This document shows, in pieces, positions 23,632-27,851 of a DNA stretch of 41,464 nt (its first letter is position 1; each line of letters opens with the position of its first letter). The stretch is from Parvibaculum indicum (GTDB lineage: Bacteria; Pseudomonadota; Alphaproteobacteria; Parvibaculales; Parvibaculaceae): positions 1 through 41,464 of the forward strand of contig NZ_JAASQO010000023.1 of the NCBI RefSeq assembly GCF_011762095.1, read 5' to 3'. The translations under genes were made by a program, and so were the position numbers. Under the pieces are notes generated by a model. That model did no database searches. It was not told the origin of the DNA and was given only the letters and a program-made list of their open reading frames with translations.

Positions 23632-23691
23632 AATTCGTCGCCCCGACGTCACGTCATATATCACGTGGTTGTGCCGCGGATTTCGTTATGG
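23632..23691 (-). pseudogene. Decayed duplicate of the guaA 3' end
   Basis: Read on the minus strand this stretch encodes, with one base missing, NEIRG-x-NHVIYDVTSG, against [19 protein letters not shown] at the true end of guaA. By eye the DNA is about 80% identical over 49 columns (23644-23690 against 26331-26379) with two single-base gaps. After a roughly 35-base deletion that removes the last codons and stop, similarity resumes: GCGACGAATTTG here, GCGACGAAATTG just past the guaA stop. It has in-frame stops and is not translated. It lies in the same orientation as guaA at the far side of the glycosyltransferase-FkbM cassette, and overlaps the last bases of the FkbM gene. Confidence 0.8.
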
Positions 23692-24450
23692 GCCGGTTGG
23701 CAATGCAAGGAGATCGAAAAAGTCTCCCCCATCCGCCAGGGTTTCGAGCTTTACCATTTGATAGGTGTCGGAAGACGAGTTTCTCTCACCGACATTGCGA
23801 TAAAAGTTATATCCGTGCGGTTCGAGAAGCTCCTGAAGCAGATCACGACTTCCTCCGGTCCTTTCCAATTGCTCCTTAACAACCTCAATGTAGAGGATCG
23901 GTCGTACCGCTCGCAGAATTGGCTGTATGGATCGCAAAATCGCACATTCCATGCCTTCGACATCAATCTTTATCAAGTCAGGCTTCGCAAACCCACTCAG
24001 CAGCAGGCATCTGTAGGCTTCAGTTCCGTACACACCATCCGACGACGGCAGAAAAGCGCCGGCACCCGTGTTGTTTTTTGTATTCGTCCGCTCAAAGGAT
24101 GCCGTGTCGCTGTCACAGAGGATTTCATTTCGGCACTGAACGGTATGCAGTAGCTCATTCACACAAATGTTCAGCGTCAACACCTCAAAGGTTTCAGACG
24201 AACCTTCAATGGCCAATAGTTTGCCGGCAGCACCGATCTTTCGTGCTATCGGCACAGCGTAGGTGCCGATATGGGCCCCGATATCAACAACGGTGAAGCC
24301 GGGCCTCACGTGATCCATCAACATCGCAAGCTCATTGCGCGTGTGAGCGCCGAATTCCAGAAGCTGATCCGTAATCAGATCGTTCTCGAACGCCCAATAA
24401 GACCCTATGGCAACCTCAATCCGTTGGAGTTTCGAGAAATCCACACCCAA
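23686..24450 (-). CDS. FkbM-family SAM-dependent methyltransferase
   Basis: This 254-residue methyltransferase has the SAM-binding motif TVVDIGAHIGTYAVPIARKI near residues 53-72, followed by LLAIEGSSETFEVLTLNICV, and LIKIDVEGMECAIL near residue 160, which is diagnostic of the FkbM family. These enzymes often O-methylate sugars or polyketides. It starts one base after the stop of the glycosyltransferase-methyltransferase fusion (TTG at 24450; an in-frame GTG lies two codons later), so the two are translated together. Base composition is clearly lower in GC than the flanking core genes, which suggests acquisition. Probable role: modifying a surface glycan or lipid-linked sugar. Confidence 0.9.
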   Translation of the reverse strand: MGVDFSKLQRIEVAIGSYWAFENDLITDQLLEFGAHTRNELAMLMDHVRPGFTVVDIGAHIGTYAVPIARKIGAAGKLLAIEGSSETFEVLTLNICVNELLHTVQCRNEILCDSDTASFERTNTKNNTGAGAFLPSSDGVYGTEAYRCLLLSGFAKPDLIKIDVEGMECAILRSIQPILRAVRPILYIEVVKEQLERTGGSRDLLQELLEPHGYNFYRNVGERNSSSDTYQMVKLETLADGGDFFDLLALPTGP

Positions 24451-24451
24451 T

Positions 24452-26155: not shown

Positions 26156-26300
26156 CAGAATGCCCGCCCCCCAAAAGTTTATGCAATTCTAATCAATACG
26201 ATGATGAGAATATGGTCCCCTCGAACGTACCGACAGAATGGAAGCGCCTTCCGTTTCTGGCCGATGCCCCCATCGTCTCAACAATTTCGTCGCAGAAAAT

Positions 26301-27851
26301 TTACTCCCACTCAATCGTCCCGGGCGGCTTCGAGGTCACGTCGTAGACGACGCGGTTGATGCCGCGGACCTCGTTGATGATGCGCGTCGAGACGTGGCCG
26401 AGGAATTCGTGGCTGAAGGGATAGTAGTCCGCCGTCATGCCGTCGAGCGAGGTCACGGCGCGGAGCGCGCAGACATAGTCATAGGTGCGTTCGTCGCCCA
26501 TCACGCCCACCGTGCGCACCGGCAGCAGCACCGCGAAGGCCTGCCAGATCTGGTCGTAGAGGCCCGCCGCGCGGATTTCCTCCAGATAGATCGTGTCGGC
26601 TTTCCGCAAAATCTCCAGCTTCTCGCCCGTGATCTCGCCCGGCACGCGGATGGCGAGCCCCGGCCCGGGGAAGGGATGCCGCCCGACGAATTGTTCCGGC
26701 AGGCCGAGCTCGCGGCCGAGCTCGCGCACCTCGTCCTTGAAGAGTTCGCGAAGCGGCTCCACCAGCTTCATGTTCATGCGTTCGGGCAGCCCGCCCACAT
26801 TGTGGTGGCTCTTGATGGTGACGGAGGGCCCGCCCGCGAAGGACACGCTTTCGATCACATCCGGATAGAGCGTCCCTTGCGCCAGGAAGTCGGCGCCGCC
26901 CACCTTCTTCGCCTCTTCCTCGAAGACGTCGATGAAGGTGGAGCCGATGATCTTGCGCTTCTGCTCCGGGTCGGTCACGCCGTCGAGCTTGCCGAGGAAG
27001 AGCTCGCTCGCATCCACCGCCACGAGCGGGATGTTGTAATGGTCGCGGAAGAGCGAGACGACCTCGGCGGACTCGCCCGCCCGCATCATGCCGGTATCGA
27101 CGAAGACGCATTGAAGCTGGTCGCCGATGGCCTCATGCAGCAACACCGCGACGACGGATGAGTCCACCCCGCCCGACAGCCCGCAAATGACGCGGCCCTC
27201 GCCCACCTGCTCGCGCACCTTGGCGATCTCGGTCTCGCGGAAGGCGGCCATGGTCCAGTCGCCGGAGCAGCCGCAAATGCGGTGCGTGAAGTTCCACAGC
27301 ATGTCGCGCCCGCGCGGCGTGTGAACGACTTCCGGGTGGAACTGCACGCCATAGAAGCGCCGCTCCTCATCCGCGATGGCCGCGAAGGGCGCGCCCCGGC
27401 TCTGGCCGATCACCTTGAAGCCCGGCGCGAGGCTCACCACCCGGTCGCCATGGCTCATCCAGACGGGTTCCGTCTCGCCCTTCTGCACGACGCCCTCGAA
27501 AAGCGGGCTGTCCTCCAGCACCTCGATGGCGGCGCGGCCGAATTCGCGCTCGTCATGGCCTTCCACCTTGCCGCCCAGCTGCAGCGTCATGGTCTGCTGG
27601 CCGTAGCAGATGCCCAGCACCGGCAGCCCCGCCTCGAAGACGAATTGCGGCGCGCGGGGGCTTCCCTCCCGGCTCACGCTGGACGGGCTGCCCGACAGGA
27701 TAACGCCCTTCGGCCCGAAGCTCTCCCACATCTCCTCCACCTTGTTGAAGGGCACGATCTCGCTATAGACGCCGCTTTCGCGGATACGCCGGGCGATGAG
27801 CTGCGTCACCTGGCTGCCGAAATCGATGATGAGGATGCGGTCTTCGGTCAT
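26301..27851 (-). CDS. guaA: GMP synthase (glutamine-hydrolysing)
   Basis: GuaA aminates XMP to GMP with glutamine and ATP. The 516-residue protein has the class I amidotransferase domain with catalytic Cys82 in GICYGQQ and FHPEVVHT (His). The ATP-pyrophosphatase loop [10 protein letters not shown] follows, and the XMP-binding C-terminus ends in PPGTIEWE, the invariant family end. The start ATG 27851 places [13 protein letters not shown] at the beginning; ATG 27857 and TTG 27869 are alternatives. The gene is intact, but its 3' end borders the glycosyltransferase cassette, and a decayed second copy of that end lies at the cassette's other side. Transcribed after rsmB and guaB. Confidence 0.98.

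Follow-up and report, generated by a model that had tools for sequence, protein, structure and literature searches.

The 2.6 kb insert between guaA and rpiB of Parvibaculum indicum is probably (we would put it at roughly 0.7) the remnant of an old island at the known guaA hotspot, i.e., an eroded, integrase-free element which an integrase would have brought in, which kept its cargo and whose distal guaA copy was worn down. The guaA gene was reportedly described as an integration hotspot by Song et al. in 2012, as cited in PMC7775301. The window is the entire stretch of 41,464 nucleotides that was analysed. On its minus strand the order is guaA, a fusion gene, an FkbM gene, a 47-base piece of the guaA tail, the leader of rpiB, and rpiB itself:

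26301..27869, minus strand: guaA (GMP synthase), intact, its 3' end being the proximal attachment site (Pfam GMP_synt_C, GATase)
26331..26379, minus strand: guaA 3'-end segment repeated across the insert, from the alignment to the distal copy
26156..26300, minus strand: noncoding leader from the guaA stop to the first cargo gene, which would hold the arm of the element
24452..26155, minus strand: cargo gene 1, fusion of a probable GT-A (GT8-like) glycosyltransferase domain and a SAM methyltransferase (Pfam, structure model)
23686..24450, minus strand: cargo gene 2, FkbM-family methyltransferase (Pfam Methyltransf_21, E 8.8e-11)
23644..23690, minus strand: eroded distal copy of the guaA 3' end, candidate attR remnant (39/49 columns identical)
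23605..23645, minus strand: rpiB's own leader, adjoining the copy (41-nt match to the rpiB leader of G016)
23155..23604, minus strand: rpiB, first gene past the insert (Pfam LacAB_rpiB; ATG at 23602-23604), adjoining guaA in G025

As in known guaA islands, the insertion is at the 3' end of a full-length guaA; the insert starts at the guaA stop. A preliminary description had claimed that the two guaA copies enclose just two genes, a fusion of glycosyltransferase and methyltransferase and FkbM, both of lower GC. This is borne out: the GC content of 23691-26300 is 0.526, that of guaA and of rpiB 0.660 each. An equally low GC is found in 18 out of 778 segments of the same size, of which 3 lie at the insert and the other 15 at 36201-36901. 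A second low-GC stretch, at 34500-41464, forms the end of the contig and carries an autotransporter (33523-36426), an AAA/STAND-type ATPase (37836-39128) and a 549-aa ORF without a Pfam match (39757-41406).

The C part of the fusion protein is a SAM methyltransferase (Pfam Methyltransf_23/11 at 350-473). Its N part has no sequence match in Pfam or PDB. A low-confidence model (mean pLDDT 50) retrieves glycogenins in Foldseek (best E 1.6e-4), and an LCDxDL motif, a candidate for the DxD-type metal site of a GT-A fold, is conserved with a 34% homologue in genome G018, which belongs to a longer protein whose remainder resembles a methyltransferase by eye. Judged by the model, the N part is a probable GT-A (GT8-like) glycosyltransferase domain. 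This suggests that the fusion and the FkbM protein are a pair which modifies a surface glycan. The distribution of the fusion gene is patchy. Matches at E 0.001 or better are present in 34 of 385 genomes of the class, its own included; strong matches exist in three other class genomes, each to the methyltransferase half only. Plasmid and phage records and the genome contig collection yielded no match to the fusion gene.

The claim of a guaA-end match upstream of rpiB, at about 80% over 49 columns and in the same orientation, withstood scrutiny. The 47 bases at 23644-23690 align with guaA 26331-26379, both on the minus strand, over 49 columns with 39 identities and two one-base gaps. Thus, the direct repeat of the guaA end, which marks the distal side of guaA islands, is present. 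The copy still encodes the recognizable peptide which the preliminary description had pointed out as NHVIYDVTS; the full reading is HNHVIYDVTS, and its frame is that of the rpiB ORF. At its 5' end the first bases of the copy supply the TAA stop codon of the FkbM gene (23686-23688). A chance similarity between the upstream region of rpiB and guaA is hardly credible. The match is only 47 bases long and the rpiB leader beside it has no relation to guaA, yet the alignment scores 44, whereas the highest score among 500 shuffles of the region is 26 and the second-best place in the window outside guaA reaches 28; moreover, orientation and position within guaA are the same as in the copies of relatives.

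The copy spans guaA positions -76 to about -28 and then stops against rpiB's own leader. It finishes about 28 nt short of the guaA stop, and the GAGTGGGA core of guaA islands is missing from it. The preliminary description had extended the similarity to bases beyond the guaA stop, after a 35-base deletion. This part has to be given up. A global alignment of the window spacer with the guaA-rpiB junction of G025 was equalled by 1599 of 5000 shuffles (1147 of 5000 under a second scoring), and the bases in question, the 41 nt ahead of rpiB, match the rpiB leader of G016 instead, as well as none of 1000 shuffles did; for this reason the copy covers -76 to about -28 only. In G016 rpiB is not adjacent to guaA. 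The match to the rpiB leader of G004 is weaker and partial (5 of 1000 shuffles were as good). As the fragment and rpiB share one frame, automatic annotation could begin rpiB 20 codons early, inside the guaA fragment (23155-23664).

What does the guaA-rpiB junction look like in relatives? In G025, of the same genus, the guaA stop is followed after 14 nt by the ATG of rpiB and then by ilvD. The predicted direct joining of guaA to rpiB is therefore seen in gene order; the exact empty junction was found in none of the genomes examined, and G025 is an empty site at the level of gene order only. In G008 guaA is joined to an amidohydrolase gene which in the window lies beyond rpiB, and in G002, G010, G012, G017 and G021, all of the same genus, other DNA lies between guaA and ilvD or the amidohydrolase gene. 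Of the 27 genomes in the genus, several of which are incomplete, just 5 have an rpiB of the window type. The nearest relative of the window's genome (G000) is G015, with a guaA protein 99% identical; there unrelated AT-rich DNA follows guaA and the contig ends after 284 nt. Among the other 39 genomes of the family the fusion gene is missing, save for the 34% N-part match in G018, which sits on a different contig from guaA; the relatives do not uniformly carry the same two genes at normal composition, the finding which the preliminary description had named as fatal to its interpretation. The absence of the fusion gene from relatives, G018 apart, and the empty site, in G025 at gene order only, are as expected of foreign DNA.

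A clean pair of an empty and an occupied site exists in genus g3 of the same family. In G028 guaA is directly followed by the neighbouring gene. In G035 guaA is followed by a LysR-isochorismatase pair, then by guaA's last bases, and then by the sequence that in G028 comes after guaA. In G032 the same pair as in G035 is preceded by a second, shorter insert, and both inserts have a guaA-tail copy of their own. Thus, none, single and double occupancy are observed within one genus. In G004, G032 and G035, from the genus and family of the window, inserts are likewise bounded by guaA-tail copies.

We surveyed 138 guaA loci, of which two were too short to scan and four were duplicates, i.e., 136 were scanned and 132 are distinct. 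Direct guaA-tail copies number 22 in 19 of the 132 distinct loci, window included, all in the orientation of guaA; this set is enriched, as 14 loci had been fetched for a second guaA tail in a protein search, and the count excludes L147, which is the same contig as that of G004, and a weak internal match in L208. Without selection, a second match to the guaA C-terminus is present in 17 of 286 class genomes, roughly one in twenty. Fifteen of the 17 were confirmed as nearby direct copies; in G046 and G266 the second match is located on another contig. As a control, an internal 60-aa stretch of guaA gave a second match in only 2 of 288 genomes, one of which (G196) is the same long copy. The C-terminus of ilvD gave one in 92 genomes, on a split contig, a weaker control because this stretch is less conserved. 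A further scan of 79 class genomes, an eightieth being too short, detected one long copy (G422) and short repeats in G239, G306 and G095; as these genomes were chosen after removal of those with known second matches, and G422 was known beforehand, the scan demonstrates only that the protein search missed few. Together with P4-type integrases in 10 of 138 loci, these figures are in line with the earlier statement that the guaA 3' end is a recurrent insertion site.

The segments between guaA and its copies measure 0.6 to 5.9 kb with a median of 1.8 kb, and 20 of 22 fall between 0.6 and 3.3 kb. Tandem inserts are present in three loci, G004, G032 and G094. Newer inserts that enter next to guaA are expected to leave the nearer copy better preserved, as is the case in G032 (0.87 against 0.76) and G094 (0.93 against 0.88). 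G004 breaks this pattern, with 0.92 over 167 nt and 0.94 over 50 nt.

The cargo of the annotated inserts falls into toxin-antitoxin, abortive infection/defence, restriction, methyltransferase and metabolic genes; the Pfam annotation left out G117, G308 and G326. PIN toxin genes were identified in the inserts of G094, G125 and G356, FkbM in G210, DUF268 in G269, an ABC-F-type ATPase in G386, a helix-turn-helix protein in G237, and a set of D12 methylase, ParB-like and Mrr-like genes in G037. An AbiJ domain in G094 remained under the Pfam cut-off. The inserts of G004 encode a TetR regulator together with a dehydrogenase of the 3-beta-HSD type, and an M20 peptidase together with a protein of the glycine-transporter type; G032 has LysR and isochorismatase, G400 a Rieske oxygenase, and G196 a thiolase with an OB-fold protein. 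The single ORF scanned from the G184 insert gave no Pfam match. Three inserts of less than 1 kb from three families, L226 (G094), L225 (G125) and L231 (G356), each carry a PIN-domain toxin and are bounded by the guaA tail; in G094 a small antitoxin-like ORF precedes the toxin gene.

A local partial duplication of the guaA end, followed by insertion of unrelated genes and with no mobile element involved, appears quite improbable before this background. The annotated cargo varies between genera, that of the window is foreign in composition, and the 3' end of ilvD has no nearby duplicate in 92 genomes; what such a duplication would explain is the decay of the copy in one genus, which resembles that of DNA without a function. 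In that genus the same ABC-F-type gene lies 3' of guaA in L244 (G422), L228 (G386), L247 (G310) and L246 (G215). G422 still has a long guaA-tail copy, which in G386 is truncated at the stop codon of the ABC-F gene, in G310 can just be made out, and in G215 was not found. Because the copy visibly erodes along this series, edges of copies can be deletion end points, and the edge in G386 is a deletion.

The erosion bears upon a further regularity. In 7 of 22 copies, window included, a cargo stop codon is located within 2 nt of the copy edge (null expectation 0.9% per position). Initially we read this as a design feature of a cassette. The plainer reading, from the series G422, G386, G310 and G215, is deletion down to the last stop codon that is needed; on this comparison of sequences erosion can explain the pattern.

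The 5' edges of the copies range from -35 to at least -300 (G196, with a copy of at least 300 nt). Ten of 22 are positioned within 20 nt (-76 to -96), a concentration reached in 40 of 20,000 simulations, and 8 within 14 nt, reached in 169 of 20,000; the simulations used a hand-entered list of edges with two adjusted (G000 from -72 to -76, G037 from -191 to -171) and drew from -220 to -30, while one real edge is at -300 or beyond. The main cluster includes the window (-76) and the integrase-bearing element of L166 (-82). A smaller and weaker group is found near -158 to -171. Such a pile-up in sequence positions favours site-specific recombination; the deletion edge in G386 cautions against too plain a reading.

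These edges have to be weighed against recombination of the Campbell type, in which RecA would recombine a foreign circle carrying a guaA 3' fragment and neighbouring genes into guaA, and so yield a full guaA, the cargo and a truncated tail without any integrase. We consider this unlikely. It would produce the same gene order, it requires no integrase, none being detected by two queries in 18 of the 19 loci with copies, and it agrees with variable copy lengths, the longest (G196) measuring at least 300 nt. It does not fit edges which cluster near -82 and, less strongly, near -162, nor duplications confined to the 3' end of guaA (17/286 compared with 2/288 internally), nor the L166 element, which carries an integrase and has its edge within the main cluster.

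Integrases are in fact encountered next to guaA, as anticipated in the preliminary description. P4-type integrases lie directly 3' of guaA in G003, G005, G006 and G014, all of the genus of the window; one of the 10 P4-type matches among the 138 loci is a decayed fragment (G027, same family). L166, a contig named Magnetospirillum from another group, has a different tyrosine integrase at guaA. The further expectation, an integrase accompanied by the same guaA repeat, holds for L166, where the element has at its flank a guaA-tail repeat whose start, -82, is near that of the window copy; for the P4-type islands of G003, G005, G006, G014 and G040 distal repeats were not found within the 14 to 56 kb scanned. 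The window insert itself lacks the P4-type integrase that is typical of guaA-associated islands, where AlpA often accompanies it: no remnant was detected (best tblastn E 1.7) and no ORF for an integrase. The queries that gave nothing in 18 of 19 loci with tail copies were the P4-type profile and the L166 integrase. A P4-type arm in the leader at 26156..26300 has no clear match either (score 25; 95% point of the null 21, null maximum 26), and of the 18 tail-copy loci just G400 shows the arm motif clearly (score 33, null maximum 24).

We infer that an integrase acted, and which one. It would have recombined an element with guaA, which kept its full length or received a complete 3' end, and would have left a second piece of the guaA tail at the far side beside rpiB. 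The cargo would have been retained and probably modifies a surface glycan, and the functionless far copy would have eroded to 47 bases between the FkbM stop codon and the leader of rpiB. The insert may be an island after loss of its integrase or a cassette that had none from the start. The preliminary interpretation, an old island that lost its integrase and kept its cargo, is largely supported: the insertion at the guaA site stands, and the loss of the integrase is one of two options.

Two variants of the exchange at guaA left no trace. Had the tail of guaA in the window been replaced by one borne on the element, identity to G015 should change along the gene; it is even, at 0.963-0.964. In G004 the average similarity to other guaA tails is slightly lower for the displaced copy than for the resident tail (0.805 against 0.845). 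A displaced native tail predicts the reverse, and erosion would lower the similarity of the copy too.

Several elements of this kind are in print. Islands at guaA have P4-type integrases and a direct repeat of 8-20 nt around the GAGTGGGA core (PMC9376610; PMC7775301), and Mesorhizobium elements use guaA as their site (PMC8627217). Like the window insert, the guaA islands GIsul2 and ICERspD18B are inserted at the guaA 3' end with a direct repeat at the far side; they carry a P4-type integrase, as is also found at guaA in the genus of the window. The window insert differs in a repeat that lies further upstream (-76 to -28) and is without GAGTGGGA, in its size of 2.6 kb, and in that no integrase was detected.

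Cis-mobilizable elements (CIMEs) and their tandem accretion are dealt with in PMC5704250. The likeness to CIMEs is that the window insert is without integration and transfer genes (it has only two genes, both annotated), that candidate att copies flank it, and that G004, G032 and G094 have tandem arrangements. By definition a CIME keeps both att sites; the distal copy of the window is shortened and its mobility is therefore doubtful. The microcin H47 island of E. coli is similarly a small island without recombination genes and with extensive imperfect direct repeats, its mobility being in trans (PMC3191183); it differs from the window insert in having 13 kb and in that mobility was demonstrated by experiment. 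The CR2-sul2 unit at guaA is att-bounded and moved by the GIsul2 integrase (PMC9376610). It is an ISCR2-type unit with resistance cargo, and neither is represented in the two genes of the window. Use of guaA as an integration site, the GAGTGGGA core, P4-type integrases, and units moved by a foreign integrase are all documented.

Tentatively, and with a good deal less confidence than in an island remnant, the window insert can be viewed as a worn member of a widespread, unnamed class of tiny alphaproteobacterial cassettes. These would consist of 1-3 genes and a recombination site made of the guaA tail, would be integrase-free, moved in trans and accumulated in tandem next to guaA. The tail would measure 80-170 nt, sometimes more, and would often set in right at the stop codon of the last gene. 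The integrases that might move them would come from guaA islands resident in the genome, and the newest cassette would lie nearest to guaA, by analogy with integrons. The mini-inserts may move in trans or may be leftovers. Integron gene cassettes hold one or two genes and close with a recombination site, are added in tandem, and often carry toxin-antitoxin genes. They are defined by attC and the integron integrase, whereas the recombination site here is the end of a protein gene. In our partial library, no paper on small integrase-free guaA inserts was found by title and start of abstract among the matches listed. Small inserts of this type could escape island finders that rely on integrases. 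Should they be moved in trans, a single housekeeping gene would offer, at its end, a general cassette port in Alphaproteobacteria. Small cassettes bounded by long guaA tails merit a systematic survey.

Of 203 loci, 4 (G000, G023, G039, G330) have an FkbM gene no more than 3 kb beyond guaA, compared with 1 gene in 1.1 Mb further out. We do not count this apparent enrichment since three of these four loci served as seeds for the profile and the 203 include a few duplicates. In L102 (G039; two in tandem) and L074 (G023) FkbM genes lie directly 3' of guaA, and no tail copy was detected in either locus.

Other arrangements were met at the guaA end. An earlier scan of both strands in part of the loci picked up 26 nt in L086 (G011), about 280-310 nt after guaA, that weakly match the end of guaA in inverted orientation. 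In L252 (G095) the last guaA codons and the stop are repeated in tandem right 3' of the gene (GAGTGGGAATAGGGC units). L305 (G239) has, at about 6610-8930, two GAGTGGGA repeats of about 20 nt that enclose a gene of AbiEii type together with a companion ORF for which Pfam gives no match. There is a CTATCG-rich arm, and between the repeats no other long or integrase-sized third ORF. By its sequence this is a candidate for an intact integrase-free island at the classic core.
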